Source: Terebella lapidaria
Taxonomy: Eukaryota > Annelida > Polychaeta > Terebellida > Terebellidae
Length of the DNA: 64,000 nucleotides
Assembly: GCA_949152475.1 (NCBI GenBank)
Contig: CASCJZ010000001.1
Coordinates: 15,001 to 79,000, forward strand
Direction of reading: 5' to 3'
In this document: in pieces, positions 7,041-30,194 of the stretch
How the letters are laid out: each line of letters begins with the position of its first letter
How positions within the stretch are numbered: position 1 is the stretch's first letter
Notes under the pieces: generated by a model
What the model was told of the DNA's origin: nothing
The model's database searches: none
Seen by the model: only the letters and a program-made list of their open reading frames with translations
Made by a program: the position numbers and the translations under genes

Positions 7041-7400
7041 CTATAAGGATGGGATAATATCTTCCATCATATGTGTGACAGGCTTGGCGTAACCTTCAAC
7101 CAGATCATAGTGACGACCATAAAACTTTTTGAATGTCGACCTCAGCCTAGGCATTTGGTATCCTTGTTTGAGCAATTTGGTAGTCAGAACCTGTGCTCGA
7201 ACTATGAATCCCTGGTATGATGAACATGCTCTAGCATAACGAATTAACTGGGACACGTAGACGCCATAGGCTGGTGATGCTGGGATATTACTGCTCAAAA
7301 CAGGAAAGTCGATAATGGGAAAATCAAAATCGTCACGTTTGTCATATAACCTTGTAGCCAACTCAGTAGCCTTCGGGCTTGTGATTAGGTACTTATGTAC
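7041..7400 (-). mobile_element. Fossil retroelement fragment (reverse-transcriptase ORF C-terminal part)
   Basis: On the minus strand this encodes a stretch containing TRLYDKRDDFDFPIIDFP, then AYGVYVSQLIRYARACSSY and RSTFKKFYGRHYDLV. I recognise this signature from the region downstream of the polymerase domain in reverse-transcriptase-type ORFs scattered through marine invertebrate genomes. Only this short piece is present. The catalytic domain and element ends are missing from the window, so it is a broken relic. I cannot assign it to an order (LINE, Penelope-like or LTR kin) from this fragment. Confidence 0.6.
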
Positions 7401-7675
7401 TTGTCATATATCTGTTCCATTGGGGTTGTTGGATTTCTAAATTGCTTTCATAGGTTGTTGGGCAGTTGTATACTAATTCCATCAGGTGTAAAGTAGAAAC
7501 AACTACAGTTAACACACTGATTAACACACTCCCCTAATGACGCCAGTGTGTCTTCGGATAAACTATTCAGTCGGGCTTTGTTTCTATTGCAAAATATTGT
7601 ATTTTTCGTTTCTTATTGTCATCATTAAAATCTCATTGTATTGGGGGTAATAGATTGATACTTACACTTGTACAC
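7401..7675. other. AT-rich non-repetitive spacer, no gene seen
   Basis: Unique AT-rich sequence between the retroelement relic and the first satellite 2 monomer. No ORF, RNA or repeat is seen. Confidence 0.5.
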
Positions 7676-10587: not shown

Positions 10588-11994
10588 TTTCAAGTGAGCA
10601 GTCACAGGCACTCGGCATTTTCTCGTTTAGTCAAACAGCTCTCATCCACTAGGACGTCGGCATGAGACAGACACAAGTACCCTTTCGAGGCAGATTCCTA
10701 CTCGTCAACCGGAACATGTTCACCACAAGCAGACCATGAGACCTTTCACCGCCTAACCGGCCGATAACATTTTTCTAACTATCTATGGGAGATGCGGGTT
10801 GTTTGTGACAGCACAGTCACAGGCACTCGGCATTTTCTCTTTTAGTCAAACAGCTCGCGTCTACTAGGACGTCGACGGGTGACAGATACACGTACCCTCT
10901 CGAGGAAGAGTCCTATTTCTGGCCCACTGGACGAAGCTCACCTGGAAGATGTTCCGGGTCACAGACGGTTGCTTTTCGTCGGGCTCTTTCCACCTGTCGG
11001 CCTAGCTCGGGTCATCAACGGTCACGTAAAACACCCAAGAACTCGGAATAGGTCAAGTAGACGGAAACCAATGCGATAAAACCAACTCTTCTTATGACAC
11101 GTGTTGCACCAGTACCATCATGCTATGAAAAGCCTCAGCTTATGACACATTTTGCATGCTTTCGTGTGGTCAAACAGCTCGCATCCACTGGGACACTGAC
11201 GAGTGACAGAGACAAGTACCCTCTCGAGGCAGATTCCTACTCGTCACCCGGAACATGTTCACCACAAGCACACCATGAGACCATTCGCCGGCTCATCGGT
11301 TGAAAGCAGTTTTTCAGCAATATATAGGAGATACTGAGTGTTTCGGACCTCACAATGTGGGAGTTCCGAAGCATTCAGGATTTCCTTTGAGCAGTCAGGA
11401 AAATGAAGTCGGCCGATGAGTGGGCAAATATTCTCACGGCGGGCTTTTGATGTTTTACTTTGGTGGTTGCTCTGTGATGCGACTTGCCACTTTTCCCAGA
11501 TGAATGACCCGAGCTAAGCCAACAGGAGGCGAGAGCCCGACGAAGGGCAACCGTCGGTGACCTGGAACTTGTTCCTAGTGAGCTTCTTTCAGTGAGCAGT
11601 TACAGGCACTCGGCATTTTCTCGTTTAGTCAAACAGCTCTCATCCACTAGGACGTCGGCATGAGACAGACACAAGTACCCTCTCGAGGCAGATTCCTACT
11701 CGTCAACCGGAACATGTTCACCACAAGCACACCATGAGACCACTCACCGGCTCATCCACTGACTCTATTTTTCTAACTATATATAGGAAGGGCCTTTTCA
11801 GCCTTTTCCTTTTTAGTAAAACAGCTCGCGTCCTCTAGGACGTCGAGAGGTGACAGATACAAGTACCCTCTCGAGGAAGAGTCCCACTCTTGGCCAACGG
11901 AACGAAGCTCAGCTGGATCAGGTTCCGGGTCACCGACGGTTGCAATTCTTCAGACTCTCTCCACCTGTCGGCTTAGCTCGGGTCATCAACGGTC

Positions 11995-12003
11995 ACGTAA
12001 AAG
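11995..12003 (+). other. Empty LINE target site
   Basis: The sequence acgtaaaag occurs once here, flanked by the same satellite sequence found on both sides of the inserted LINE (cacggtc-type left flank, acccacgaactc right flank). It sits exactly 2,741 bp before the left target-site duplication of LINE copy 1, so it represents the uninterrupted site. Confidence 0.9.
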
Positions 12004-14735
12004 ACCCACGAACTCAGTCTACGTCAAGTAGACGAAAACGAGAGCAATAAAACCAACTCTCTTCATGACAGGTTTTGCACCACTACCGTCATGCTATGAA
12101 AAGCCTTAGCTTACGACACATTTTGCACGCTTTCGTGTGGTCAAACAGCTCGCGTCCACTATAACACTGACGGGAGATAGATACAAGTACCCTCTTGAGG
12201 CAGCATCCTACTCTTCACTCGAAACATGTTCACCACCAGCACACCATGAGACCTTTCGCCAACTCACCGGCTGATAACATTTTCTTAAATATGTATAAGG
12301 AGTGCCGGGCGTTTGTGACAGCGCAGTCACAGGCACTCGGCACTTACTTGTTTAGTCAAGCAGCTCGCGTCCAGTAGGACGTCGACGGGTGACAGATACA
12401 AGTACCCTCTCGAGCAAGAGTCCTACTCCTGGCCCACTGCACGAAGCTCACTCGGAACATGTTACGGGTCACCGATGGTTGCCCTTCGTCGGGCTCTTTC
12501 CACCCGTCGGCTTACTTCGGGTGATCAACGGACACGTAAAAGACTCAAGAACTCGGTCTAGGTCAAGTAGACAGAAACCAGTGACAAAGACAAGTACCCT
12601 CTCGAGGCAGGACGTCGAGGGGTGACAGATACATGTACCCTCTCGAGGAAGAGTCCCACCCTTGGCCCACTGAACGAAGCTCACCTGGATCAGGTTCCGG
12701 GTCACCGACGGTTGCATTTCTTCGGACTCTTTCCACCTGTCGGCTTAGCTCGGGTCATCAACGGTCACGTAAAAGACCCACGAACTCAGTCTACGTCAAG
12801 TAGACGAAAACGAGAGCAATAAAACCAACTCTCGTCAAGACAGGTTTTGCACCACTACCGTCATGCTATGAAAAGCCTTAGCTTATGACACATTTTGCAC
12901 GCTTTCGTGTGGTCAAACAGCTCGCATCCACTGGGACACTGTCAGGTGACAGATACAAGTACCCTCTCGAGGCAGATTCCTACTCGTCACCCGGAACATG
13001 TTCACCACAAGCACACCATGAGACCATTCGCCGGCTCATCGGTTGAAAGCAGTTTTTCAGCAATATATAGGAGATACTGAGTGTTTCGGACCTCACAATG
13101 TGGGAGTTCCGAAGCATTCAGGATTTCCTTTAAGCAGTCAGGAAAATGAAGTCGGCCGATGAGTGGGCAAATATTCTCACGGCGGGCTTTTGATGTTTTA
13201 CTTTGGTGGTTGCTCTGTGATGCGACTTGTCACTTTTCTCAGATGAATGACCCGAGCTAAGCCAACAGGAGGCGAGAGCCCGACGAAGGGCAACCGTCGG
13301 TGACCTGGAACTTGTTCCAAGTGAGCTTCTTTCAGTGAGCAGTCACAGGCACTCGGCATTTTCTCATTTAGTCAAACAGCTCTCATCCACTAGGACGTCG
13401 GCATGAGACAGATACAAGTACCCTCTCGAGGCAGATTCCTACTCGTCACCCGGAACATGTTCACCACAAGCAGACCATGAGACCTTTCACCGCCTAACCG
13501 GCCGATAACATTTTTCTAACTATCTATGGGAGATGCGGGTTGTTTGTGACAGCACAGTCACAGGCACTCGGCATTTTCTCTTTTAGTCAAACAGCTTGCG
13601 TCTACTAGGACGTCGACGGGTGACAGATACACGTACCCTCTCGAGGAAGAGTCCTATTTCTGGCCCACTGGACGAAGCTCACCTGGAAGATGTTCCGGGT
13701 CACAGACGGTTGCTTTTCGTCGGGCTCTTTCCACCTGTCGGCCTAGCTCGGGTCATCAACGGTCACGTAAAACACCCAAGAACTCGGAATAGGTCAAGTA
13801 GACGGAAACCAATGCGATAAAACCAACTCTTCTTATGACACGTGTTGCACCAGTACCATCATGCTATGAAAAGCCTCAGCTTATGACACATTTTGCATGC
13901 TTTCGTGTGGTCAAACAGCTCGCATCCACTGGGACACTGACGAGTGACAGAGACAAGTACCCTCTCGAGGCAGATTCCTACTCGTCACCCGGAACATGTT
14001 CACCACAAGCACACCATGAGACCATTCGCCGGCTCATCGGTTGAAAGCAGTTTTTCAGCAATATATAGGAGATACTGAGTGTTTCGGACCTCACAATGTG
14101 GGAGTTCCGAAGCATTCAGGATTTCCTTTAAGCAGTCAGGAAAATGAAGTCGGCCGATGAGTGGGCAAATATTCTCACGGCGGGCTTTTGATGTTTTACT
14201 TTGGTGGTTGCTCTGTGATGCGACTTGCCACTTTTCCCAGATGAATGACCCGAGCTAAGCCAACAGGAGGCGAGAGCCCGACGAAGGGCAACCGTCGGTG
14301 ACCTGGAACTTGTTCCTAGTGAGCTTCTTTCAGTGAGCAGTCACAGGCACTCGGCATTTTCTCGTTTAGTCAAACAGCTCTCATCCACTAGGACGTCGGC
14401 ATGAGACAGACACAAGTACCCTCTCGAGGCAGATTCCTACTCGTCAACCGGAACATGTTCACCACAAGCACACCATGAGACCACTCGCCGGCTCACCCAC
14501 TGACTCTATTTTTCTAACTATATATAGGAAGGGCCTTTTCAGCCTTTTCCTTTTTAGTAAAACAGCTCGCGTCCTCTAGGACGTCGAGAGGTGACAGATA
14601 CAAGTACCCTCTCGAGGAAGAGTCCCACTCTTGGCCAACGGAACGAAGCTCAGCTGGATCAGGTTCCGGGTCACCGACGGTTGCATTTCTTCAGACTCTC
14701 TCCACCTGTCGGCTTAGCTCGGATCATCAACGGTC
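12004..14735 (+). repeat. Satellite 2 unit left of LINE copy 1
   Basis: One 2.74-kb higher-order unit of A, B and C modules with two module C copies (from about 13,072 and 14,066). It is repeated at +9,100 (21104-23835) with few differences, for example ctgcacgaag for ctgaacgaag near 12440. The last bases before the insertion carry ggatcatcaa, where LINE-free units have gggtcatcaa. Both LINE-bearing units share this variant. Confidence 0.9.
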
Positions 14736-15640
14736 ACGTAAAAGCCCGTTCTACAGTACTTGAGGGTCGCCTAACCCGAGCCGAGAAAGTTATTGGTGAC
14801 CTTAGGGAACGGACCTTCGAGATCGAAGCACGTAGCATGCGGGAGAATATTGTTTTTCAACAGATTCCTGAGTCAAATGAACCAAGTATTAGAGTGGTGT
14901 GGAATTTCTTGAAATCGGAAATGAATATATCAGATGACAACTTGCGAAAAATCAACTTGATCAGGGCTCATCGTATGGGCAAACAGGGGAATTATATCCG
15001 ACCAATTGTGGCCCGTTTTGACAGAGGCAGTATTGAGTTGGTAATGAAACATGCCAACCAACTCAAGGGAACAACTTACGCTGTCAATGTCCAGCTTCCT
15101 AGAGAACTGGAGGAGAGACGCAAGGAACTTGTGCCGAAGTACAAGGAAGCCCGAGATGCTAAGAAAAAAGTGGCTTGGAAGCGGGACCGTCTTTTTATCG
15201 ACGACATTGAGTACCGGGCTGCTAACGACCAGATCCAGGTTGATCCTTCAGCATGTGACCCCGTCGAGAAATCATCAGCTACTAAGGTTACCAGAACACC
15301 CCCCAAAGTGTATACAGGCAGTCGATACCAGGGTAATTCCGTCCCCATCGATAAGCAGGAGGATATTCTTCCAGGTTTACACGCCATATATAGCGACGCT
15401 AGAGTAGCATCTGCCACACATAACACCTACGCATATCGTCTGAGTACTCCGTCCGGGATTGTGGAACATTACGAGGATGATGGCGAGCACGGAGCGGGTA
15501 GGCGAGTCCTTCGTGTTCTTCAGTCACTCGACATCCAGAACCGCATCGTGTGCATCACTCGCTGGTACGGGGGAGTTGAACTTGGTCCAGCTCGCTTTAA
15601 GCATGTGGAGGAGGCAGTCAATGACGTTCTGAAATTGTAG
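14591..15640 (+). CDS. LINE ORF1 protein with C-terminal IMPACT domain, fused to satellite-encoded leader
   Basis: The 349-codon frame has three origins. Residues 1-51 are satellite 2 translation. LINE sequence starts at residue 52, inside a coiled coil (about 53-85, TVLEGRLTRAEKVIGDLRER). Residues 86-165 (RENIVFQQIPES, RAHRMG, RPIVARFDR) match the RRM-like domain of L1-type ORF1 RNA-binding proteins, and 166-215 (LPRELEERRKELVPKYKEAR, DRLFIDDIEY) match its C-terminal domain. After a polar linker, residues 257-349 carry the hallmarks of the IMPACT/UPF0029 family: ATHNTYAYR (275-283), DDGEHGAGRRVL (296-307) and ITRWYGGVELGPARFKHV (322-339). The first part should bind LINE RNA. The IMPACT domain's role here is unknown; cellular IMPACT binds GCN1 and dampens GCN2 signalling. 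The native start is lost. The start given is only where the open frame begins (a GTG), so true translation from it is doubtful. Confidence 0.85.
   Translation: MTDTSTLSRKSPTLGQRNEAQLDQVPGHRRLHFFRLSPPVGLARIINGHVKARSTVLEGRLTRAEKVIGDLRERTFEIEARSMRENIVFQQIPESNEPSIRVVWNFLKSEMNISDDNLRKINLIRAHRMGKQGNYIRPIVARFDRGSIELVMKHANQLKGTTYAVNVQLPRELEERRKELVPKYKEARDAKKKVAWKRDRLFIDDIEYRAANDQIQVDPSACDPVEKSSATKVTRTPPKVYTGSRYQGNSVPIDKQEDILPGLHAIYSDARVASATHNTYAYRLSTPSGIVEHYEDDGEHGAGRRVLRVLQSLDIQNRIVCITRWYGGVELGPARFKHVEEAVNDVLKL
14736..14744 (+). repeat. Target-site duplication, left (LINE copy 1)
   Basis: The 9-bp acgtaaaag is repeated at 21095-21103 on the other side of the element and is present once in the empty sites at 11995-12003 and 32727-32735. 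Confidence 0.92.
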
Positions 15641-17352
15641 TTTGTTTTGCATGTTCATTCTCAGTCGAATCTTGTGATTCTAGTGTTGAAAACAGTAACT
15701 TTCTTAATCTGCAAGTGCATGATCAATCAATAGACTTAGTGAAATGTATGAGCCTGAATCAATAATTATAGACTTACCGGTATGCTTCCTTAAATTCCCG
15801 TCATTCTATGCACTTGAATCGTCCACCTTGTATCAGCATAACTTTATGAACAGGAATGGATTGACATAGAAAATCTACATCTGAACTGTTTGTTGTAATG
15901 TCGTAAGTTAATTTTGAATACACACTTATTAAGGAAAAATAACGATCACAGTGTGGTGTAAATAATCACTAATGAACGCGTGTAGTTGTGACTTTATGTC
16001 TACAGCAGCAAAACTTGACACTACGTTGCTGGTAGTTCATTCAATATTTTGCTGTAATGTCCGTTGAATTTGGTGTGCTTGTTTGATCACATCATATACA
16101 TGAACGTATGAATGGGATTAATTTGGTTGTTGATGCGTACCGCTGAAGTTTGTAACAATCATAATTTGTCGAAACTCTTCGATCATAAATGTGAACAATT
16201 GACAATATATTAATAACAACCAACATCATTAATATATGAATGAGGTAAACTTGTGTGCTTTTCTGTTGTTCGTGTTGATATTCGAGAAGACTTGGATACT
16301 TTCGTTGGCGTCATTTCTATTTGAAAGTGTACTACTTAAAAGCATGGCACGCATTTATGTTGCATTTAAAAAATATATATTTACATATTTTACATTATAT
16401 AGATATATTATTCGAACTGCTGACAAACAGAGCTAACACAGGTTTTAGGTCTCCGACGTCGGGTTGCATTTGTCGTACCTCAGTCGTCTGTCTAACTGCC
16501 GACAGAGCAAGCGCAGGTTTTAGACGTGGCGTTGCATTTGTCGTCCCTCAGTCGTCTATATACAATTTTGACTTTGGAATTTGCAGCCGGATCGAAATAT
16601 TCCAAGAGGAAAGAACTGAGGGAGGTATTACACTTGTGTAGCTTCGTACCATGTGTGGGGTTTCGTTACTCGTTACTCTTGAGTTGTCTATTTTGGCGTG
16701 GCATCTATTTTGATCTTTTGACGGCTTTGTAAAGAGTTGAACGCTTCCGGAAGAAGCCATAATGTTGGCACATCCGAGTGAAAGGTCGTGTGCTTGGTTT
16801 CGGTGGTGGCCTTGGTTTTAGCCTTCGGTGACTTTGAAGGCTGAAGGTAGAAAATTGGTGGGGAAATATATGATTGCGACTCAACACTGTATTTTCCTCC
16901 GGTAACCTTCTTTGGCCCTTGGGCTAATATGTAACGCTACAGTTTATAGCAGAATGATCGTAGCACCATACACATGTTTGAGATAGTACATTCTTATGGT
17001 GAACATATGATATAATGTGCAATGCCTCATGAACGTATCTCGGAAGTTTACATTGAGAGTTGGTCTTTTTTTCAGCACAATAAGTTCGTTCGACCCGCAT
17101 ATTTACCAGTGGTCGATTTGTCGATTTCTGACCCTAAAACACTTGGGGGGGTCCTTGTATGTATCTTGCTATTCGTATTAATATGATATATTATAGCATC
17201 AAAAATTAGTTCATACATCATTAAGCAAATGGTAGAAATTGTTTCTTTGGTCGATTGGCACACATGTAGAGATAACTATTCACAATGATAAATTAATGCA
17301 GCTTTCACAATTCGCTTACAAGGCCTTCTTGGAGTCCGTGTAACTGTAAATA
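15641..17352 (+). other. Inter-ORF region of LINE copy 1 (1.7 kb)
   Basis: No convincing gene lies between ORF1 and ORF2. The stretch is AT-rich from the ORF1 stop onward, unlike ORF1. Frames of 60-106 codons (16236-16436, 16321-16641 and several antisense) have no recognisable domain. It holds a ~70-bp direct repeat (16439-16562). CR1-type elements normally have closely spaced or overlapping ORFs, so 1.7 kb is unusual. It could carry an internal promoter, an IRES or a former 5' UTR. Confidence 0.7.
16439..16562 (+). repeat. Imperfect ~70-bp direct repeat in the inter-ORF region
   Basis: Two copies share caggttttag, gttgcatttgtcgt and cctcagtcgtct. The second block recurs at 68-bp spacing (16463 and 16531), with a short indel after the first block. 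The second copy runs into tatatac. Tandem monomers of this size are typical of LINE 5' UTR promoters, so this may be a promoter remnant; that is inference. Confidence 0.6.
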
Positions 17353-20300
17353 ATGTGTCACGAAGCCGACGTGTTTGGTGTCCATATTGTTGAAACATGT
17401 ATTTGTACATATGTTTTTTATTTGTGTTCTCGTATTTTGTTATATATTTCTAAGAACAGTGGCGCAATATTAAATGGCACCAGGAATACTTCAATTTATA
17501 TATTTTTTGGTGAAAAGTATTTGATTACAGCTTTGTTGTCCACCTCTGCACTGAAGGTAATATTATTATTATCCGGAGACATTCATTCTAATCCAGGCCC
17601 AAACCAAATATCAATCTGTCATTCAAATATAAGGGGACTGTCTATCAACTCATGTGAAAACAAAATGTATAAGGTTGACGAGCTCTATAGCCATTATTGC
17701 GTCGAGGAATCTTTCAATTTTATATGCATATCTGAAACTCACCTGAATGCGGATACAGATATGACAGACTTTCCAATTCCTGACGATGAATATATATTGT
17801 ACCGTCGCGACCGTGTGGGTCGTCGAGGTGGCAGAGTGGCGATCTTAGCGTCAACTCATTTTGCGCATACTCAAATTCTCGATTTGTCACACCCAAATAT
17901 TGAAAATCTATGGATTGAAATTGTTCATCATAACAAGTCCATAATGCTTGGTGTATTTTACAGACCTCCAAACCAATCCAATGATGAGGTAGACCTCTTC
18001 ATTGATAGTTTTCAAGACAACTTGAATGACGTTTGTGCACGTAAACCCTCCAATATTTTCGTTCTAGGCGACTTCAATGATCGGTGTACTACTTGGCACT
18101 CAGATCATAGTAACAGTGAATTAAGAAACAAATTATATGATCTCTTGAATTGCAATGATTTGTCGCAGGTCATTGAAGACCCGACAAGGATAACATCTCA
18201 AACAGCTACTATACTGGACCTTGTCATTACCGATTCACCTGTAAGTATAACTGCACATGGTGTATTACCGCCTATAGCCGACAGTGATCATAGTGTTGTT
18301 TTTTGTAAAACTAGTTTCACTTATTGCTCTGATAAACCATATACGAGAAGAATTTATGACTATCGAAAAGCAAATTTTGATGATATGAATGTAGATATTT
18401 ATAACTCGCCATTATGCACCCTTATTAACGCAGTGGATGACGTCGACGACGCAGTAGATGTATGGTATACGTTTATGAATGATAATATAACAAATTATAT
18501 TCCATCGAAAGTAGTGACTGTGCGACCAAAAGATAAACCATGGTTAACTGGTGAAATAAAAAGATTACTCAGAGTTAGAAATAGGTTGTTTAAGAAGTTT
18601 AAAAGAACTAGGAAAATAGAGGATGAAATTCGTTGGAAGGACAGTCGTCGGGAGGCGAAAATTTCGATGAACGCATCCAAAAAGCGTTATTTTGATAAAC
18701 TTTACAATTTGCTGGAAGATCCTGATTTAGCACCGAAAAAGTATTGGCAGATAACAAAATCCTTGTATGGTAGTACAAAAACAAAAAACTTTGGCATTCC
18801 ATCTTTAATAGATAACGACGTGCAATACACGAAATCTTCAGAAAAATGTAATTTGCTCAATCGCTTTTTTGCAGATCAGTCGAAGTTGAATATACCTTCT
18901 GACCATAAACTTCCCGATTTGGTACCAAAATCAAATAATACCCTCAGTGACATTGTTGTGACTGAGGAACAGGTCATGGAAGTATTACAAAAACTGGACG
19001 TCAATAAAGCAAGTGGCCCTGATCACATAAGTAATAGAGTATTAAGATTGTGTGCCCCTTCTATTGCCCTTCCATTGAGTATTATATTTAACAAATCATT
19101 CGCGACTGGAAAAGTACCTGAAAAATGGAAGTTATCTAACATCACCCCAGTTTATAAAAAAGGCGAAAAGTCAGTTAAATCTAACTATAGACCAGTGGCC
19201 CTGTTGCCGTGTGTGTCCAAAGTACAGGAGAAACTTATTTTTAATGTATTGTATCAATTTTGTATAGACAATAACTTACTCACTTGGAGAAATTCGGGAT
19301 TCAAAAAAATGGACTCGGCAATGAATCAACTTATATATATAACCCACCAATTGAATAAAGACTTAGACACTGGTAATGACATCTGTATGGTATTCCTGGA
19401 CGTTAGTAAAGCTTTCGATAAGGTTTGGCATCCAGGATTATTACATAAGTTGAAAGAATTTGGAATATGTGGATCATTGTTGAACTGGTTAGCTTCATAT
19501 CTATCCAACCGTAAACAACGGGTCGTGATTAATGGACAAGATTCTGAGTGGCTTGAAACAGAAGCTGGGGTTCCCCAGGGATCAATATTAGGTCCCCTAT
19601 TATTTTTGATATTTATAAATGACATAATTAGCGATATTCAATCTGAGATATATCTATTTGCGGACGACACATTCTTGTACAAAACCATTAGGTCTGACCA
19701 AGATAGTTTTGACGACTTGAATAGTGACTTATACAAACTTCAGTGCTGGTCATCACAGTGGTTGGTCACATTTAATGCAGAAAAAACAGAATATATGAAA
19801 GTATCGCGCAAAAAACATGTCGCTGATGATTCGCCTCTGATGTTAAATAATACTCATATCAAGCTCGTCGACACCCATAAACATCTCGGCGTAACTTTCA
19901 ATAGCAAAGGCTCATGGGTTGACCATATTTACGATCTGAAACGCAAGGCAACCAGGTCCACTGGTCTGTTGCGCCGGATACAATATTATGTTCCACGTTC
20001 ATGTTTGGACACACTTTATAAATCCTTCGTAAGGCCATTATTAGAATATGGAGATGTATTGTTTGATTCTGCGCCAAATTTATACCTAACTCAGCTTGAA
20101 AAGGTTCAACGGGATTGTGCGATAATTGTTACTGGCGCGTACAGACATACATCACATGAAGCACTGTTACACGAGTTGGGATGGGAGCCGCTCTCATTGC
20201 GTCGTCGACGTCATCGATTGTGTATCATGTACAAAATTCAAACGGAATTGGCCCCAAATTATTTGTGTGATATATGTCCATCGGCAATAGGGGATGTTGT

Positions 20301-20868
20301 ACCATATAACCTTCGTAGTAACGCTGATTTGAGGAATGTCCCCACCCGAACAACAACATTTATGAATTCTTTTTTCCCCGTAACCATTCGTGAATGGAAT
20401 AATTTAGATATCGATTTGAAGAGTGCCATTTCACTCAAATCTTTCGAAAGTAGACTCAGAAATTTATCACAATATAAAGCGAATGTGTTATATTCGTACG
20501 GTCAAGGATATGGCCGCATAAACCAAACTAGACTCCGACTCGGCTTAAGTGCTTTAAATGCACATAGACATCAATATAATTTTATTGACTATTCACAGTG
20601 TCCAAAATGTTGTCATCCAGTTGAAGATACGTGCCATTTCTTACTTGATTGTCCAAGTTACTCAAATGCGAGACGCATTCTGGCTATAGAGCTTGCCAGC
20701 CTCCTAGCACCAGGTGTGCATTATTCATTGTTTTTGCCAGAATCTATCGATGACATGAAACATTTTATAAATTGTATTTTACATGGTTTTCCTGATCTTT
20801 CATACTATGATAATAAGGTTGTATTCAAAGCTGTTCAACATTTCATTTCTATAACTAAACGCTTCTGA
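17353..20868 (+). CDS. LINE ORF2: endonuclease-reverse transcriptase, copy 1
   Basis: A 1,171-aa polyprotein that nicks target DNA and primes reverse transcription from it. Residues 1-74 are hydrophobic-rich, ending at a 2A-like motif (75-83). An APE-type endonuclease follows (about 86-320) with the expected residues N92 (SNIRG), E128 (SETHL), Y203 (FYRPP), D240 and N242 (LGDFN), and D312/H313 (SDHS). The reverse transcriptase (about 535-800) has D683 (FLDVSKAFDKVW), AGVPQGSILGP (738-748) and the catalytic FADD (769-772). A thumb/connection region leads to a CX2CX8HX4C finger (C1083, C1086, H1095, C1100). The first ATG is used; an in-frame TAA lies two codons upstream. The frame is complete. 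Residue 161, in the RRGG-VAI motif of the endonuclease, is Arg here but Gly in copy 2. Confidence 0.95.
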   Translation: MCHEADVFGVHIVETCICTYVFYLCSRILLYISKNSGAILNGTRNTSIYIFFGEKYLITALLSTSALKVILLLSGDIHSNPGPNQISICHSNIRGLSINSCENKMYKVDELYSHYCVEESFNFICISETHLNADTDMTDFPIPDDEYILYRRDRVGRRGGRVAILASTHFAHTQILDLSHPNIENLWIEIVHHNKSIMLGVFYRPPNQSNDEVDLFIDSFQDNLNDVCARKPSNIFVLGDFNDRCTTWHSDHSNSELRNKLYDLLNCNDLSQVIEDPTRITSQTATILDLVITDSPVSITAHGVLPPIADSDHSVVFCKTSFTYCSDKPYTRRIYDYRKANFDDMNVDIYNSPLCTLINAVDDVDDAVDVWYTFMNDNITNYIPSKVVTVRPKDKPWLTGEIKRLLRVRNRLFKKFKRTRKIEDEIRWKDSRREAKISMNASKKRYFDKLYNLLEDPDLAPKKYWQITKSLYGSTKTKNFGIPSLIDNDVQYTKSSEKCNLLNRFFADQSKLNIPSDHKLPDLVPKSNNTLSDIVVTEEQVMEVLQKLDVNKASGPDHISNRVLRLCAPSIALPLSIIFNKSFATGKVPEKWKLSNITPVYKKGEKSVKSNYRPVALLPCVSKVQEKLIFNVLYQFCIDNNLLTWRNSGFKKMDSAMNQLIYITHQLNKDLDTGNDICMVFLDVSKAFDKVWHPGLLHKLKEFGICGSLLNWLASYLSNRKQRVVINGQDSEWLETEAGVPQGSILGPLLFLIFINDIISDIQSEIYLFADDTFLYKTIRSDQDSFDDLNSDLYKLQCWSSQWLVTFNAEKTEYMKVSRKKHVADDSPLMLNNTHIKLVDTHKHLGVTFNSKGSWVDHIYDLKRKATRSTGLLRRIQYYVPRSCLDTLYKSFVRPLLEYGDVLFDSAPNLYLTQLEKVQRDCAIIVTGAYRHTSHEALLHELGWEPLSLRRRRHRLCIMYKIQTELAPNYLCDICPSAIGDVVPYNLRSNADLRNVPTRTTTFMNSFFPVTIREWNNLDIDLKSAISLKSFESRLRNLSQYKANVLYSYGQGYGRINQTRLRLGLSALNAHRHQYNFIDYSQCPKCCHPVEDTCHFLLDCPSYSNARRILAIELASLLAPGVHYSLFLPESIDDMKHFINCILHGFPDLSYYDNKVVFKAVQHFISITKRF
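17575..17601 (+). other. 2A-like ribosome-skipping motif (copy 1)
   Basis: Residues 75-83 of ORF2 read GDIHSNPGP after a leucine-rich run (VILLLS). The 2A consensus is DxExNPG^P; here the Glu position is His78. 2A-like motifs upstream of the endonuclease are known in LINEs of sea urchins, molluscs and amphioxus. Release would occur between Gly82 and Pro83, separating an 82-residue leader from the enzyme. Activity with His at this position is uncertain. Confidence 0.65.
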
Positions 20869-21094
20869 ATTGTCTCAATATAAATATATAAAATGTCATT
20901 AGTATCCCTTGATACTTCGTTTGTAATTCCGCTGGTGTCCACTGTAAAAAGTTAACTGGTATAATATATGTTCTGTTCATTATTGTATATATGTTCCTGC
21001 ACTTGTTGTACAGAGCACGGAGGAGACCCCCTAGTGGCTACGGCTGTGGGGAATCCTCCTTAAACAAATAAAGTTTACATTTACATTTACATTT
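20869..21094 (+). other. LINE 3' UTR and tail, copy 1
   Basis: A 226-bp AT-rich stretch follows the ORF2 stop, ending in a stable hairpin (21019-21059), an AATAAA polyadenylation-type signal (21067-21072) and (TTTACA)3 plus TTT (21074-21094). In this supergroup the reverse transcriptase recognises the 3' end of its own RNA, so hairpin and tail are the likely recognition elements. Confidence 0.8.
21019..21059 (+). promoter_or_regulatory. 3'-terminal hairpin of the LINE RNA (copy 1)
   Basis: ggagga (21019-21024) pairs with tcctcc (21054-21059) and cccc (21027-21030) with gggg (21048-21051). They are separated by a symmetric 2x2 internal loop (ga/aa) and enclose a 17-nt loop. It lies 35 bp from the insertion end and is identical at +9,100. 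It is probably the template-recognition structure for target-primed reverse transcription. Confidence 0.7.
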
Positions 21095-21103
21095 ACGTAA
21101 AAG
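21095..21103 (+). repeat. Target-site duplication, right (LINE copy 1)
   Basis: acgtaaaag, matching 14736-14744. Together with the last TTT of the tail it makes the palindrome tttacgtaaa across the junction (21092-21101). Confidence 0.92.
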
Positions 21104-23835
21104 ACCCACGAACTCAGTCTACGTCAAGTAGACGAAAACGAGAGCAATAAAACCAACTCTCTTCATGACAGGTTTTGCACCACTACCGTCATGCTATGAA
21201 AAGCCTTAGCTTACGACACATTTTGCACGCTTTCGTGTGGTCAAACAGCTCGCGTCCACTATAACACTGACGGGTGACAGATACAAGTACCCTCTTGAGG
21301 CAGCATCCTACTCTTCACTCGAAACATGTTCACCACCAGCACACCATGAGACCTTTCGCCAACTCACCGGCTGATAACATTTTCTTAAATATGTATAAGG
21401 AGTGCCGGGCGTTTGTGACAGCGCAGTCACAGGCACTCGGCACTTACTTGTTTAGTCAAGCAGCTCGCGTCCAGTAGGACGTCGACGGGTGACAGATACA
21501 AGTACCCTCTCGAGCAAGAGTCCTACTCCTGGCCCACTGAACGAAGCTCACTCGGAACATGTTACGGGTCACCGATGGTTGCCCTTCGTCGGGCTCTTTC
21601 CACCCGTCGGCTTACTTCGGGTGATCAACGGACACGTAAAAGACTCAAGAACTCGGTCTAGGTCAAGTAGACAGGAACCAGTGACAAAGACAAGTACCCT
21701 CTCGAGGCAGGACGTCGAGGGGTGACAGATACATGTACCCTCTCGAGGAAGAGTCCCACCCTTGGCCCACTGAACGAAGCTCACCTGGATCAGGTTCCGG
21801 GTCACCGACGGTTGCATTTCTTCGGACTCTCTCCACCTGTCAGCTTAGCTCGGGTCATCAACGGTCACGTAAAAGACCCACGAACTCAGTCTACGTCAAG
21901 TAGACGAAAACGAGAGCAATAAAACCAACTCTCGTCAAGACAGGTTTTGCACCACTACCGTCATGCTATGAAAAGCCTTAGCTTATGACACATTTTGCAC
22001 GCTTTCGTGTGGTCAAACAGCTCGCATCCACTGGGACACTGTCAGGTGACAGATACAAGTACCCTCTCGAGGCAGATTCCTACTCGTCACCCGGAACATG
22101 TTCACCACAAGCACACCATGAGACCATTCGCCGGCTCATCGGTTGAAAGCAGTTTTTCAGCAATATATAGGAGATACTGAGTGTTTCGGACCTCACAATG
22201 TGGGAGTTCCGAAGCATTCAGGATTTCCTTTAAGCAGTCAGGAAAATGAAGTCGGCCGATGAGTGGGCAAATATTCTCACGGCGGGCTTTTGATGTTTTA
22301 CTTTGGTGGTTGCTCTGTGATGCGACTTGTCACTTTTCTCAGATGAATGACCCGAGCTAAGCCAACAGGAGGCGAGAGCCCGACGAAGGGCAACCGTCGG
22401 TGACCTGGAACTTGTTCCAAGTGAGCTTCTTTCAGTGAGCAGTCACAGGCACTCGGCATTTTCTCATTTAGTCAAACAGCTCTCATCCACTAGGACGTCG
22501 GCATGAGACAGATACAAGTACCCTCTCGAGGCAGATTCCTACTCGTCACCCGGAACATGTTCACCACAAGCAGACCATGAGACCTTTCACCGCCTAACCG
22601 GCCGATAACATTTTTCTAACTATCTATGGGAGATGCGGGTTGTTTGTGACAGCACAGTCACAGGCACTCGGCATTTTCTCTTTTAGTCAAACAGCTTGCG
22701 TCTACTAGGACGTCGACGGGTGACAGATACACGTACCCTCTCGAGGAAGAGTCCTATTTCTGGCCCACTGGACGAAGCTCACCTGGAAGATGTTCCGGGT
22801 CACAGACGGTTGCTTTTCGTCGGGCTCTTTCCACCTGTCGGCCTAGCTCGGGTCATCAACGGTCACGTAAAACACCCAAGAACTCGGAATAGGTCAAGTA
22901 GACGGAAACCAATGCGATAAAACCAACTCTTCTTATGACACGTGTTGCACCAGTACCATCATGCTATGAAAAGCCTCAGCTTATGACACATTTTGCATGC
23001 TTTCGTGTGGTCAAACAGCTCGCATCCACTGGGACACTGACGAGTGACAGAGACAAGTACCCTCTCGAGGCAGATTCCTACTCGTCACCCGGAACATGTT
23101 CACCACAAGCACACCATGAGACCATTCGCCGGCTCATCGGTTGAAAGCAGTTTTTCAGCAATATATAGGAGATACTGAGTGTTTCGGACCTCACAATGTG
23201 GGAGTTCCGAAGCATTCAGGATTTCCTTTAAGCAGTCAGGAAAATGAAGTCGGCCGATGAGTGGGCAAATATTCTCACGGCGGGCTTTTGATGTTTTACT
23301 TTGGTGGTTGCTCTGTGATGCGACTTGCCACTTTTCCCAGATGAATGACCCGAGCTAAGCCAACAGGAGGCGAGAGCCCGACGAAGGGCAACCGTCGGTG
23401 ACCTGGAACTTGTTCCTAGTGAGCTTCTTTCAGTGAGCAGTCACAGGCACTCGGCATTTTCTCGTTTAGTCAAACAGCTCTCATCCACTAGGACGTCGGC
23501 ATGAGACAGACACAAGTACCCTCTCGAGGCAGATTCCTACTCGTCAACCGGAACATGTTCACCACAAGCACACCATGAGACCACTCGCCGGCTCACCCAC
23601 TGACTCTATTTTTCTAACTATATATAGGAAGGGCCTTTTCAGCCTTTTCCTTTTTAGTAAAACAGCTCGCGTCCTCTAGGACGTCGAGAGGTGACAGATA
23701 CAAGTACCCTCTCGAGGAAGAGTCCCACTCTTGGCCAACGGAACGAAGCTCAGCTGGATCAGGTTCCGGGTCACCGACGGTTGCATTTCTTCAGACTCTC
23801 TCCACCTGTCGGCTTAGCTCGGATCATCAACGGTC
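21104..23835 (+). repeat. Satellite 2 unit between the two LINE copies
   Basis: This is the 2.74-kb unit of A, B and C modules, equivalent to 12004-14735 at +9,100. Its left part is identical, at the level of translated frames, to 30204-31213 and slightly different from 12004 onward (for example LSPPVSLARV here against LFPPVGLARV). The copies therefore homogenised at different times. Confidence 0.9.
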
Positions 23836-24740
23836 ACGTAAAAGCCCGTTCTACAGTACTTGAGGGTCGCCTAACCCGAGCCGAGAAAGTTATTGGTGAC
23901 CTTAGGGAACGGACCTTCGAGATCGAAGCACGTAGCATGCGGGAGAATATTGTTTTTCAACAGATTCCTGAGTCAAATGAACCAAGTATTAGAGTGGTGT
24001 GGAATTTCTTGAAATCGGAAATGAATATATCAGATGACAACTTGCGAAAAATCAACTTGATCAGGGCTCATCGTATGGGCAAACAGGGGAATTATATCCG
24101 ACCAATTGTGGCCCGTTTTGACAGAGGCAGTATTGAGTTGGTAATGAAACATGCCAACCAACTCAAGGGAACAACTTACGCTGTCAATGTCCAGCTTCCT
24201 AGAGAACTGGAGGAGAGACGCAAGGAACTTGTGCCGAAGTACAAGGAAGCCCGAGATGCTAAGAAAAAAGTGGCTTGGAAGCGGGACCGTCTTTTTATCG
24301 ACGACATTGAGTACCGGGCTGCTAACGACCAGATCCAGGTTGATCCTTCAGCATGTGACCCCGTCGAGAAATCATCAGCTACTAAGGTTACCAGAACACC
24401 CCCCAAAGTGTATACAGGCAGTCGATACCAGGGTAATTCCGTCCCCATCGATAAGCAGGAGGATATTCTTCCAGGTTTACACGCCATATATAGCGACGCT
24501 AGAGTAGCATCTGCCACACATAACACCTACGCATATCGTCTGAGTACTCCGTCCGGGATTGTGGAACATTACGAGGATGATGGCGAGCACGGAGCGGGTA
24601 GGCGAGTCCTTCGTGTTCTTCAGTCACTCGACATCCAGAACCGCATCGTGTGCATCACTCGCTGGTACGGGGGAGTTGAACTTGGTCCAGCTCGCTTTAA
24701 GCATGTGGAGGAGGCAGTCAATGACGTTCTGAAATTGTAG
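23691..24740 (+). CDS. LINE ORF1 protein with C-terminal IMPACT domain, copy 2
   Basis: The 349 residues are identical to the ORF at 14591-15640: 51 satellite-encoded residues, then a truncated coiled coil, the RRM-like and C-terminal RNA-binding domains of LINE ORF1, and the IMPACT/UPF0029 domain at 257-349. The family's signature blocks (ATHNTYAYR, DDGEHGAGR, RWYGGVELGP) are all present and end only ten residues before the stop, as a compact terminal domain should. Identity with copy 1 reflects recent duplication and is not independent evidence of selection. The open frame through the IMPACT part does show it was coding when the element inserted. Confidence 0.85.
   Translation: MTDTSTLSRKSPTLGQRNEAQLDQVPGHRRLHFFRLSPPVGLARIINGHVKARSTVLEGRLTRAEKVIGDLRERTFEIEARSMRENIVFQQIPESNEPSIRVVWNFLKSEMNISDDNLRKINLIRAHRMGKQGNYIRPIVARFDRGSIELVMKHANQLKGTTYAVNVQLPRELEERRKELVPKYKEARDAKKKVAWKRDRLFIDDIEYRAANDQIQVDPSACDPVEKSSATKVTRTPPKVYTGSRYQGNSVPIDKQEDILPGLHAIYSDARVASATHNTYAYRLSTPSGIVEHYEDDGEHGAGRRVLRVLQSLDIQNRIVCITRWYGGVELGPARFKHVEEAVNDVLKL
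23836..23844 (+). repeat. Target-site duplication, left (LINE copy 2)
   Basis: acgtaaaag, with the same context as 14736-14744 including the linked ggatcatcaa variant. It arose by duplication of the filled site, not by a second insertion. Confidence 0.9.
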
Positions 24741-26452
24741 TTTGTTTTGCATGTTCATTCTCAGTCGAATCTTGTGATTCTAGTGTTGAAAACAGTAACT
24801 TTCTTAATCTGCAAGTGCATGATCAATCAATAGACTTAGTGAAATGTATGAGCCTGAATCAATAATTATAGACTTACCGGTATGCTTCCTTAAATTCCCG
24901 TCATTCTATGCACTTGAATCGTCCACCTTGTATCAGCATAACTTTATGAACAGGAATGGATTGACATAGAAAATCTACATCTGAACTGTTTGTTGTAATG
25001 TCGTAAGTTAATTTTGAATACACACTTATTAAGGAAAAATAACGATCACAGTGTGGTGTAAATAATCACTAATGAACGCGTGTAGTTGTGACTTTATGTC
25101 TACAGCAGCAAAACTTGACACTACGTTGCTGGTAGTTCATTCAATATTTTGCTGTAATGTCCGTTGAATTTGGTGTGCTTGTTTGATCACATCATATACA
25201 TGAACGTATGAATGGGATTAATTTGGTTGTTGATGCGTACCGCTGAAGTTTGTAACAATCATAATTTGTCGAAACTCTTCGATCATAAATGTGAACAATT
25301 GACAATATATTAATAACAACCAACATCATTAATATATGAATGAGGTAAACTTGTGTGCTTTTCTGTTGTTCGTGTTGATATTCGAGAAGACTTGGATACT
25401 TTCGTTGGCGTCATTTCTATTTGAAAGTGTACTACTTAAAAGCATGGCACGCATTTATGTTGCATTTAAAAAATATATATTTACATATTTTACATTATAT
25501 AGATATATTATTCGAACTGCTGACAAACAGAGCTAACACAGGTTTTAGGTCTCCGACGTCGGGTTGCATTTGTCGTACCTCAGTCGTCTGTCTAACTGCC
25601 GACAGAGCAAGCGCAGGTTTTAGACGTGGCGTTGCATTTGTCGTCCCTCAGTCGTCTATATACAATTTTGACTTTGGAATTTGCAGCCGGATCGAAATAT
25701 TCCAAGAGGAAAGAACTGAGGGAGGTATTACACTTGTGTAGCTTCGTACCATGTGTGGGGTTTCGTTACTCGTTACTCTTGAGTTGTCTATTTTGGCGTG
25801 GCATCTATTTTGATCTTTTGACGGCTTTGTAAAGAGTTGAACGCTTCCGGAAGAAGCCATAATGTTGGCACATCCGAGTGAAAGGTCGTGTGCTTGGTTT
25901 CGGTGGTGGCCTTGGTTTTAGCCTTCGGTGACTTTGAAGGCTGAAGGTAGAAAATTGGTGGGGAAATATATGATTGCGACTCAACACTGTATTTTCCTCC
26001 GGTAACCTTCTTTGGCCCTTGGGCTAATATGTAACGCTACAGTTTATAGCAGAATGATCGTAGCACCATACACATGTTTGAGATAGTACATTCTTATGGT
26101 GAACATATGATATAATGTGCAATGCCTCATGAACGTATCTCGGAAGTTTACATTGAGAGTTGGTCTTTTTTTCAGCACAATAAGTTCGTTCGACCCGCAT
26201 ATTTACCAGTGGTCGATTTGTCGATTTCTGACCCTAAAACACTTGGGGGGGTCCTTGTATGTATCTTGCTATTCGTATTAATATGATATATTATAGCATC
26301 AAAAATTAGTTCATACATCATTAAGCAAATGGTAGAAATTGTTTCTTTGGTCGATTGGCACACATGTAGAGATAACTATTCACAATGATAAATTAATGCA
26401 GCTTTCACAATTCGCTTACAAGGCCTTCTTGGAGTCCGTGTAACTGTAAATA
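24741..26452 (+). other. Inter-ORF region of LINE copy 2
   Basis: This is the +9,100 duplicate of 15641-17352. It holds the same ~70-bp direct repeat (about 25539-25662) and the same short unrecognised frames (25336-25536, 25421-25741). No gene is called. Confidence 0.7.
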
Positions 26453-29400
26453 ATGTGTCACGAAGCCGACGTGTTTGGTGTCCATATTGTTGAAACATGT
26501 ATTTGTACATATGTTTTTTATTTGTGTTCTCGTATTTTGTTATATATTTCTAAGAACAGTGGCGCAATATTAAATGGCACCAGGAATACTTCAATTTATA
26601 TATTTTTTGGTGAAAAGTATTTGATTACAGCTTTGTTGTCCACCTCTGCACTGAAGGTAATATTATTATTATCCGGAGACATTCATTCTAATCCAGGCCC
26701 AAACCAAATATCAATCTGTCATTCAAATATAAGGGGACTGTCTATCAACTCATGTGAAAACAAAATGTATAAGGTTGACGAGCTCTATAGCCATTATTGC
26801 GTCGAGGAATCTTTCAATTTTATATGCATATCTGAAACTCACCTGAATGCGGATACAGATATGACAGACTTTCCAATTCCTGACGATGAATATATATTGT
26901 ACCGTCGCGACCGTGTGGGTCGTCGAGGTGGCGGAGTGGCGATCTTAGCGTCAACTCATTTTGCGCATACTCAAATTCTCGATTTGTCACACCCAAATAT
27001 TGAAAATCTATGGATTGAAATTGTTCATCATAACAAGTCCATAATGCTTGGTGTATTTTACAGACCTCCAAACCAATCCAATGATGAGGTAGACCTCTTC
27101 ATTGATAGTTTTCAAGACAACTTGAATGACGTTTGTGCACGTAAACCCTCCAATATTTTCGTTCTAGGCGACTTCAATGATCGGTGTACTACTTGGCACT
27201 CAGATCATAGTAACAGTGAATTAAGAAACAAATTATATGATCTCTTGAATTGCAATGATTTGTCGCAGGTCATTGAAGACCCGACAAGGATAACATCTCA
27301 AACAGCTACTATACTGGACCTTGTCATTACCGATTCACCTGTAAGTATAACTGCACATGGTGTATTACCGCCTATAGCCGACAGTGATCATAGTGTTGTT
27401 TTTTGTAAAACTAGTTTCACTTATTGCTCTGATAAACCATATACGAGAAGAATTTATGACTATCGAAAAGCAAATTTTGATGATATGAATGTAGATATTT
27501 ATAACTCGCCATTATGCACCCTTATTAACGCAGTGGATGACGTCGACGACGCAGTAGATGTATGGTATACGTTTATGAATGATAATATAACAAATTATAT
27601 TCCATCGAAAGTAGTGACTGTGCGACCAAAAGATAAACCATGGTTAACTGGTGAAATAAAAAGATTACTCAGAGTTAGAAATAGGTTGTTTAAGAAGTTT
27701 AAAAGAACTAGGAAAATAGAGGATGAAATTCGTTGGAAGGACAGTCGTCGGGAGGCGAAAATTTCGATGAACGCATCCAAAAAGCGTTATTTTGATAAAC
27801 TTTACAATTTGCTGGAAGATCCTGATTTAGCACCGAAAAAGTATTGGCAGATAACAAAATCCTTGTATGGTAGTACAAAAACAAAAAACTTTGGCATTCC
27901 ATCTTTAATAGATAACGACGTGCAATACACGAAATCTTCAGAAAAATGTAATTTGCTCAATCGCTTTTTTGCAGATCAGTCGAAGTTGAATATACCTTCT
28001 GACCATAAACTTCCCGATTTGGTACCAAAATCAAATAATACCCTCAGTGACATTGTTGTGACTGAGGAACAGGTCATGGAAGTATTACAAAAACTGGACG
28101 TCAATAAAGCAAGTGGCCCTGATCACATAAGTAATAGAGTATTAAGATTGTGTGCCCCTTCTATTGCCCTTCCATTGAGTATTATATTTAACAAATCATT
28201 CGCGACTGGAAAAGTACCTGAAAAATGGAAGTTATCTAACATCACCCCAGTTTATAAAAAAGGCGAAAAGTCAGTTAAATCTAACTATAGACCAGTGGCC
28301 CTGTTGCCGTGTGTGTCCAAAGTACAGGAGAAACTTATTTTTAATGTATTGTATCAATTTTGTATAGACAATAACTTACTCACTTGGAGAAATTCGGGAT
28401 TCAAAAAAATGGACTCGGCAATGAATCAACTTATATATATAACCCACCAATTGAATAAAGACTTAGACACTGGTAATGACATCTGTATGGTATTCCTGGA
28501 CGTTAGTAAAGCTTTCGATAAGGTTTGGCATCCAGGATTATTACATAAGTTGAAAGAATTTGGAATATGTGGATCATTGTTGAACTGGTTAGCTTCATAT
28601 CTATCCAACCGTAAACAACGGGTCGTGATTAATGGACAAGATTCTGAGTGGCTTGAAACAGAAGCTGGGGTTCCCCAGGGATCAATATTAGGTCCCCTAT
28701 TATTTTTGATATTTATAAATGACATAATTAGCGATATTCAATCTGAGATATATCTATTTGCGGACGACACATTCTTGTACAAAACCATTAGGTCTGACCA
28801 AGATAGTTTTGACGACTTGAATAGTGACTTATACAAACTTCAGTGCTGGTCATCACAGTGGTTGGTCACATTTAATGCAGAAAAAACAGAATATATGAAA
28901 GTATCGCGCAAAAAACATGTCGCTGATGATTCGCCTCTGATGTTAAATAATACTCATATCAAGCTCGTCGACACCCATAAACATCTCGGCGTAACTTTCA
29001 ATAGCAAAGGCTCATGGGTTGACCATATTTACGATCTGAAACGCAAGGCAACCAGGTCCACTGGTCTGTTGCGCCGGATACAATATTATGTTCCACGTTC
29101 ATGTTTGGACACACTTTATAAATCCTTCGTAAGGCCATTATTAGAATATGGAGATGTATTGTTTGATTCTGCGCCAAATTTATACCTAACTCAGCTTGAA
29201 AAGGTTCAACGGGATTGTGCGATAATTGTTACTGGCGCGTACAGACATACATCACATGAAGCACTGTTACACGAGTTGGGATGGGAGCCGCTCTCATTGC
29301 GTCGTCGACGTCATCGATTGTGTATCATGTACAAAATTCAAACGGAATTGGCCCCAAATTATTTGTGTGATATATGTCCATCGGCAATAGGGGATGTTGT

Positions 29401-29968
29401 ACCATATAACCTTCGTAGTAACGCTGATTTGAGGAATGTCCCCACCCGAACAACAACATTTATGAATTCTTTTTTCCCCGTAACCATTCGTGAATGGAAT
29501 AATTTAGATATCGATTTGAAGAGTGCCATTTCACTCAAATCTTTCGAAAGTAGACTCAGAAATTTATCACAATATAAAGCGAATGTGTTATATTCGTACG
29601 GTCAAGGATATGGCCGCATAAACCAAACTAGACTCCGACTCGGCTTAAGTGCTTTAAATGCACATAGACATCAATATAATTTTATTGACTATTCACAGTG
29701 TCCAAAATGTTGTCATCCAGTTGAAGATACGTGCCATTTCTTACTTGATTGTCCAAGTTACTCAAATGCGAGACGCATTCTGGCTATAGAGCTTGCCAGC
29801 CTCCTAGCACCAGGTGTGCATTATTCATTGTTTTTGCCAGAATCTATCGATGACATGAAACATTTTATAAATTGTATTTTACATGGTTTTCCTGATCTTT
29901 CATACTATGATAATAAGGTTGTATTCAAAGCTGTTCAACATTTCATTTCTATAACTAAACGCTTCTGA
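26453..29968 (+). CDS. LINE ORF2: endonuclease-reverse transcriptase, copy 2
   Basis: The 1,171 residues have the same layout as 17353-20868: hydrophobic leader, 2A-like GDIHSNPGP (75-83, at 26675-26701), APE endonuclease, reverse transcriptase with FADD (769-772), and C-terminal CX2CX8HX4C finger (1083-1100). The only residue difference from copy 1 is Gly161 (codon gga, variable base at 26933), giving RRGGGVAIL. That is the form usual for LINE endonucleases, so this copy has the ancestral state and the better claim to a working endonuclease. The start is the first ATG after an in-frame stop. Activity in cells cannot be judged from sequence. Confidence 0.95.
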   Translation: MCHEADVFGVHIVETCICTYVFYLCSRILLYISKNSGAILNGTRNTSIYIFFGEKYLITALLSTSALKVILLLSGDIHSNPGPNQISICHSNIRGLSINSCENKMYKVDELYSHYCVEESFNFICISETHLNADTDMTDFPIPDDEYILYRRDRVGRRGGGVAILASTHFAHTQILDLSHPNIENLWIEIVHHNKSIMLGVFYRPPNQSNDEVDLFIDSFQDNLNDVCARKPSNIFVLGDFNDRCTTWHSDHSNSELRNKLYDLLNCNDLSQVIEDPTRITSQTATILDLVITDSPVSITAHGVLPPIADSDHSVVFCKTSFTYCSDKPYTRRIYDYRKANFDDMNVDIYNSPLCTLINAVDDVDDAVDVWYTFMNDNITNYIPSKVVTVRPKDKPWLTGEIKRLLRVRNRLFKKFKRTRKIEDEIRWKDSRREAKISMNASKKRYFDKLYNLLEDPDLAPKKYWQITKSLYGSTKTKNFGIPSLIDNDVQYTKSSEKCNLLNRFFADQSKLNIPSDHKLPDLVPKSNNTLSDIVVTEEQVMEVLQKLDVNKASGPDHISNRVLRLCAPSIALPLSIIFNKSFATGKVPEKWKLSNITPVYKKGEKSVKSNYRPVALLPCVSKVQEKLIFNVLYQFCIDNNLLTWRNSGFKKMDSAMNQLIYITHQLNKDLDTGNDICMVFLDVSKAFDKVWHPGLLHKLKEFGICGSLLNWLASYLSNRKQRVVINGQDSEWLETEAGVPQGSILGPLLFLIFINDIISDIQSEIYLFADDTFLYKTIRSDQDSFDDLNSDLYKLQCWSSQWLVTFNAEKTEYMKVSRKKHVADDSPLMLNNTHIKLVDTHKHLGVTFNSKGSWVDHIYDLKRKATRSTGLLRRIQYYVPRSCLDTLYKSFVRPLLEYGDVLFDSAPNLYLTQLEKVQRDCAIIVTGAYRHTSHEALLHELGWEPLSLRRRRHRLCIMYKIQTELAPNYLCDICPSAIGDVVPYNLRSNADLRNVPTRTTTFMNSFFPVTIREWNNLDIDLKSAISLKSFESRLRNLSQYKANVLYSYGQGYGRINQTRLRLGLSALNAHRHQYNFIDYSQCPKCCHPVEDTCHFLLDCPSYSNARRILAIELASLLAPGVHYSLFLPESIDDMKHFINCILHGFPDLSYYDNKVVFKAVQHFISITKRF

Positions 29969-30194
29969 ATTGTCTCAATATAAATATATAAAATGTCATT
30001 AGTATCCCTTGATACTTCGTTTGTAATTCCGCTGGTGTCCACTGTAAAAAGTTAACTGGTATAATATATGTTCTGTTCATTATTGTATATATGTTCCTGC
30101 ACTTGTTGTACAGAGCACGGAGGAGACCCCCTAGTGGCTACGGCTGTGGGGAATCCTCCTTAAACAAATAAAGTTTACATTTACATTTACATTT
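29969..30194 (+). other. LINE 3' UTR and tail, copy 2
   Basis: Same as 20869-21094: hairpin arms at 30119-30130 and 30148-30159, AATAAA at 30167-30172 and a (TTTACA)n tail to the target-site duplication. Confidence 0.8.

Follow-up and report, generated by a model that had tools for sequence, protein, structure and literature searches.

Domain additions to LINE ORF1 proteins

The type II (L1-type) ORF1 of LINEs comprises a coiled coil, an RRM and a C-terminal domain, and it occurs in the L1, CR1, L2 and R1 clades (PMC4120745, partial text). Esterase and PHD domains have been described as additions to the ORF1 of CR1/L2 elements in the same partial text, and a viral SF1 helicase has been described in the ORF1 of Jockey-like elements (PMC5563155, partial text). 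IMPACT/Yih1 inhibits GCN2 through competition for GCN1, according to parts of PMC4503747 and PMC7140605. The ancient domain of the IMPACT/YigZ family is conserved in all kingdoms, and its function is called unknown in those same parts.

The window analysed here is a stretch of 64,000 nucleotides of Terebella lapidaria DNA, and all positions refer to it. It contains a LINE whose ORF1 ends in a UPF0029/IMPACT domain. Like type II ORF1s, this ORF1 probably has a helix, an RRM-like part and a C-terminal part in that order, lies upstream of an APE-RT ORF2 and can be aligned end to end with LINE-1 ORF1p. It differs from them in the added C-terminal UPF0029 domain, in a core without a Pfam-level match and in the 1.7-kb spacer before ORF2. 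As in the ORF1s with esterase, PHD or helicase, the extra domain would sit in the ORF1 of a Jockey-superfamily element; the difference is that the extra domain in the present element is IMPACT/UPF0029. LINE ORF1s with varied extra domains are already known, and the IMPACT domain would add one from a translation-stress regulator. With modest confidence, we explain the locus as a 5′-truncated LINE in which an L1-type ORF1 is extended by a eukaryote-type UPF0029 domain, which would be an accessory module of the particle.

The term UPF0029 occurs zero times in PMC4120745, PMC11203168 and PMC10294476, which deal with LINE ORF1s or mollusc elements. In the same papers, "impact" occurs zero times in PMC4120745 and once in PMC11203168, and "impact domain" zero times in PMC10294476. 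UPF0029/IMPACT is not named in section 7 of PMC5563155. Literature searches, with most subscription papers outside their scope, returned no description of a fusion between a LINE ORF1 and IMPACT/UPF0029. It may be, though, that proteins labelled "Impact N-terminal domain" are listed for several molluscs in protein databases; in that case the fusion could be widespread and have simply escaped description.

A truncated LINE and its duplicate in satellite DNA

Beyond about 7.6 kb the window consists largely of satellite DNA, in which the following features were annotated.

14745..21094, + strand: 5′-truncated non-LTR retrotransposon (LINE) insertion in satellite DNA, 6,350 bp; satellite sequence breaks off after 14744 and continues from 21095
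14736..14744, + strand: left copy of the target-site duplication, 9 bp of satellite DNA that recur at 21095–21103
21095..21103, + strand: right copy of the target-site duplication, equal to the left copy
23845..30194, + strand: second copy of the insertion, by tandem duplication with a 9,100-base offset

The nine bases ACGTAAAAG flank the insertion on both sides and have a single occurrence in the intact satellite copy at 39382–39390. Uninterrupted satellite copies cross the insertion site (five were compared at the left flank), and the one at 39382–39390 spans both flanks. The satellite on both sides and the 9-bp target-site duplication indicate that 14745–21094 was inserted as a single unit, as a LINE would be. 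This single insertion carries both the ORF1 with the UPF0029 domain and an ORF2 with endonuclease and reverse transcriptase (EN-RT), and the domain lies in a single frame with an ORF1-like core.

The insertion is cut at its 5′ end inside ORF1. Besides the target-site duplication and this truncation, its lack of long terminal repeats marks it as a LINE; the longest direct repeat within the element is 48 nt. The LINE is probably CR1/L2-like, judging by its 3′ hairpin and its short repeat tail. Both ORFs are open, which suggests that the copy is young. Two separate neighbouring insertions were also considered and rejected, since one target-site duplication bounds the whole of 14745–21094.

The tandem duplication takes in the satellite flanks (about 11994–22111 and its copy). 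The two copies of the insertion differ at 1 of 6,357 bases (14745–21101), with an A at 17833 and a G at the matching place of the second copy. A second transposition was rejected as the origin of the second copy, because the 9,100-bp duplication includes the satellite flanks. The sequence-only reading had noted the same domain at 24459–24737. A copy is indeed present there; as it lies within the tandem duplication, it does not count as independent evidence.

The ORF1 core and the UPF0029 domain

The frame at 14591–15640 is open and encodes 349 aa. None of 15,000 chance frames (5,000 first-order Markov resamplings of 14745–15637, three frames each) remained open throughout, so a frame this long is not due to chance. 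About residues 1–51 of the earlier ORF1 numbering (14591 to about 14744) are satellite, with dozens of further matches in the window; the element's ORF1 therefore lacks its 5′ part, including the true start. The parts of ORF1 are as follows.

14745..15640, + strand: element part of ORF1 without its true start, an open frame of 297 complete codons from 14747 plus the stop
14747..14836, + strand: predicted long helix (helix 2–29 in a low-confidence model), probable end of the ORF1 coiled coil
14837..15220, + strand: probable L1-type (type II) RRM and C-terminal domain, limits approximate, from the alignment to LINE-1 ORF1p
15221..15316, + strand: linker between ORF1 core and UPF0029 domain, limits approximate, from the translation, with no family match above cut-off
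15317..15631, + strand: UPF0029 (IMPACT "ancient") domain, full length, from Pfam and an IMPACT homolog in the PDB

The Pfam search of the core and linker showed no family above cut-off. The only other Pfam match in ORF1, V-set_CD47, was below cut-off (E 0.26 and 0.06) and was taken as chance. PHROGs gave 0 matches to ORF1, and thus no phage relatives. The core was aligned end to end with LINE-1 ORF1p (chain 2ykp) through the RRM and the C-terminal domain, and the semi-global score was reached by 16 of 2000 shuffles. The score of the local alignment was reached by 94 of 2000 shuffles. As a control, the UPF0029 domain was aligned locally with LINE-1 ORF1p, and that score was reached by 367 of 2000 shuffles. 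Two AlphaFold models made without alignments had mean pLDDT values of 39.9 and 42.5 (low confidence). In the first, helix and strands come in an order that fits a coiled coil plus an RRM; in the second their order does not clearly fit, and neither model is evidence at such pLDDT.

Taken with the position upstream of the EN-RT, the LINE-1 ORF1p alignment weakly suggests that the core before the UPF0029 domain is an L1-type ORF1. A LINE ORF1 RNA-binding core ahead of the domain in one frame had been claimed earlier from the letters. The single frame and the ORF1-like core hold; the likeness to the L1 type is weak at the shuffle counts given.

The sequence-only reading had also placed an IMPACT/UPF0029 domain at the C-terminus of ORF1 and had named a UPF0029 profile search as the check. 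This search was run and confirmed the domain. The C-terminal part of the frame 14591–15640 matched Pfam UPF0029 (PF01205) with an E of 3.9e-25 over profile positions 2–107 of 107, scoring 88.4 bits against a cut-off of 27 bits. The limits of 15359–15637 given earlier need correction at the start, as the match spans 15317–15631 and begins before 15359.

A sequence search of ORF1 against solved structures (E up to 1) returned two chains, the IMPACT homolog 6bqi (E 1.4e-14) as the best and the bacterial TTHA1053 (E 1.2e-6). The domain alone as the query returned 6bqi again, then TTHA1053, and YigZ (1vi7) third with an E of 0.7. The domain scored 56.9 bits against 6bqi and 33.9 bits against the bacterial relative. 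Unlike the bacterial chains, both the ORF1 domain and 6bqi have RW[YF]GG and GPxRFKH, and neither has two extra residues after DDGE, whereas the ATHN stretch is common to the ORF1 domain and TTHA1053, not 6bqi. Identical positions number 30/101 against 6bqi and 29/83 against the bacterial relative, so percent identity gives the eukaryotic relative no advantage. By bits and letters shared with one solved protein (6bqi), and not by percent identity, the ORF1 domain is classed as eukaryote-type.

The element has in common with eukaryotic IMPACT/Yih1 the UPF0029 "ancient" domain, including the letters it shares with the solved homolog; it differs in that no RWD domain is seen and that it is joined to an ORF1-like core on a retrotransposon. 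With the bacterial YigZ family it has the domain family and the common motifs in common. It differs in its score against the bacterial YigZ model TIGR00257, which is 36 bits and below the cut-off of 167.95, and in its partial coverage of that model (positions 21–110 of 205); the ORF1 protein ends shortly past the matching part.

It had been suggested earlier that the domain may act as in IMPACT, which binds GCN1 and restrains GCN2. ORF1 would then mimic IMPACT and sustain translation for the element. The domain is IMPACT-type, and IMPACT/Yih1 does inhibit GCN2 by way of GCN1. However, GCN1 binding depends on the RWD domain in the cited work. Residues of RWD are needed for it, and changes in RWD helix H3 lowered Gcn1 binding and abolished Gcn2 inhibition (PMC4503747, in part), while the RWD domain alone inhibits when overexpressed (PMC7140605, in part). 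The ancient domain, whose function is called unknown in both, is described as needed but insufficient for actin binding and as not clearly determined in function in the part of PMC6550387 available. Pfam showed no RWD match in the 349-aa ORF1 frame, which includes the surviving part of an ORF1 that has lost its 5′ end. Since the GCN1-binding RWD part is not seen, the domain most likely does not work by GCN1 competition, and mimicry of IMPACT in GCN2 control is very improbable.

DDGE, the AG that follows and R[WY][YF]GG are common to the three solved relatives and are retained in the ORF1 domain. The features that are invariant between Yih1 and YigZ map to a single face, which could be a binding site for conserved molecules (PMC4503747, in part). 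Because these residues are kept, binding through one face has been suggested and RWD is not matched, we propose an accessory role instead of GCN1 competition. ORF1 would encode an RNA-packaging protein of the L1 type, built of a coiled coil, an RRM and a C-terminal domain, with a complete UPF0029/IMPACT domain at its C-terminus, and this domain would be accessory to the ribonucleoprotein particle of the LINE. It could give ORF1p a further surface that faces RNA or ribosomes and so aid the packaging or translation of the element RNA. A role of this kind is plausible and is put forward tentatively. A possible partner for the ancient domain is the cell-cycle kinase Cdc28, which was pulled down by the Yih1 fragment 133–258 (PMC4503747, in part). 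A LINE that had retained the ancient domain but no RWD domain would offer a test, set up by nature, of how the ancient domain acts by itself. We are rather doubtful that a LINE family has the IMPACT "ancient" domain fixed in ORF1 and forms a particle with a direct effect on host ribosomes or the starvation response. If true, the retrotransposon would encode a regulator of translation in its host.

The codon usage of the core and the UPF0029 domain is similar (GC3 0.457 and 0.509). The best composition break inside ORF1 is at 15436, within the domain and not at the junction with the core, and it is not significant (reached by 27 of 100 shuffles). These results fit an old fusion of core and domain. 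A one-off event would instead have joined a UPF0029 part to an ORF1 relic solely in the present copy or its immediate source, and the domain would have no role. One independent copy is known, the other being a duplication, as such an event would give. But core and domain are joined in frame, the protein stops at the end of the domain, and the codon usage on the two sides is similar. The domain is also far from 6bqi and yet keeps DDGE, AG, RW.GG and GP.RFKH, and the satellite flanks and target-site duplication show that the fusion came with the inserted piece. A one-off joining is improbable on these grounds.

The spacer, ORF2 and the rest of the window

The remaining parts of the element are as follows.

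15641..17352, + strand: spacer between ORF1 and ORF2, 1,712 bp, with 38 ATGs, a longest stop-free stretch of 120 codons and no Pfam match
17353..20868, + strand: ORF2, 1,171 aa, with a 2A/StopGo-like peptide, an APE-type endonuclease and a reverse transcriptase (Pfam and translation)
21019..21059, + strand: 3′-end hairpin of the element RNA, from the predicted fold of 21010–21092
21064..21094, + strand: AATAAA (21067) and a short ATTTAC repeat tail, from the sequence

A spacer of 1.7 kb with 38 ATGs is unusual in a LINE. The codon usage of ORF1 also differs from that of ORF2 (GC3 0.476 vs 0.320; 0 of 5000 permutations). Among the composition breaks of the element, the strongest falls at 15627, practically where ORF1 ends (0 of 100 shuffles). 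Another significant one is found within ORF2 at 17540, just before the 2A-like motif (0 of 100 shuffles), with a GC of 0.37 on both sides. Within the spacer, the GC content rises from about 16395, GTAAGT is present at 15903, and a duplicated stretch was found at 16427–16494 and 16502–16562, with pieces 83% and 86% alike. The spacer might act as a promoter or be an intron.

Given the length of the spacer and the codon-usage difference, the insertion could be a chimera of two RNAs, with the ORF1-IMPACT stretch from an ORF1-only element or a host-derived gene and the spacer-ORF2 stretch from a separate LINE. Read-through transcription or template switching by the reverse transcriptase would have joined them, and the fusion protein would then belong to another element or gene. 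The break at the end of ORF1 agrees with such a joint, and the GC rise and the duplicated segment within 16427–16562 could belong to a separate 5′ region. The stretch at 16366–16397 resembles the element's own 3′ tail, a likeness that 5 of 200 shuffles reached when 40 bases close to the 3′ end were compared and 55 of 200 when the whole 3′ UTR was; it is weak, was picked after the fact and is suggestive only.

Against a chimera, the best break within the spacer, at 16441, is not significant (12 of 100 shuffles), and the significant break at 17540 lies inside ORF2, so that a break need not mark a joint. AATAAA is absent from the spacer, as are runs of at least seven A. A search of it for short repeats and tail motifs showed nothing convincing for a nested insertion, and none of 31 repeated 9-mers made a convincing second target-site repeat. 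LINEs normally have their ORF1-like core ahead of the EN-RT, as here, which also counts against a chimera. Reticulate exchange of ORF1s among LINEs has been described (PMC4120745, partial text), and the composition difference between ORF1 and ORF2 could equally reflect an ORF1 acquired as a block. We consider a chimera unlikely, with an appreciable chance of being right, and keep the single LINE with an extended ORF1 as the preferred explanation.

ORF2 matched the Pfam families RVT_1 (E 1.4e-34) and Exo_endo_phos_2 (E 4.4e-15). Endonuclease and reverse transcriptase are found in one ORF, as in APE-type non-LTR elements. The N-terminal part of ORF2 (17560–17601) contains a hydrophobic stretch followed by ILLLSG-DIHSNPGP, a predicted 2A/StopGo-like peptide, just before the endonuclease. 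Such peptides are defined by a D(V/I)ExNPGP core and by what precedes it, which must be of a suitable kind; the ORF2 motif was compared with this definition by sequence. An H at p14 is a rare variant that was active in the natural context tested, and LLLLSG-like stretches are a reported upstream class (PMC12846837, partial text). The predicted fold of 21010–21092 has an energy of -25.3 kcal/mol and a z of -3.04, and 0 of 200 shuffles were as good.

Pattern searches for relatives of ORF1 (14837 on) gave 3 matches in viral contigs and 26 in prokaryotic genome contigs, with 0 confirmed in either. For ORF2, 5 pattern matches in viral contigs were obtained and 0 confirmed. A degenerate DNA pattern for roughly W-Y-G-G-[VIM]-x-L-G-P-[ADE]-R-F had 0 matches in viral and 0 in prokaryotic genome contigs, and one for A-T-H-N-x-Y-A-Y-R had 0 in viral contigs. 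These searches covered viruses and prokaryotes only, so absence says little, and single-protein queries reach close relatives only.

The window gave 0 matches to 4227 Rfam families at gathering score and 0 tRNAs. A 120-codon open frame without a Pfam match lies on the - strand at 7041–7403, near the start of the satellite; it may resemble a retroelement-associated protein of marine invertebrates. Positions 1–6780 hold arrays of a different 56–59 bp minisatellite and a 42-bp repeat. The right-side satellite at 43030–58983 is a higher-order repeat of about 5,266 bp, with matching copies at 43030, 48296, 53562 and 58831.
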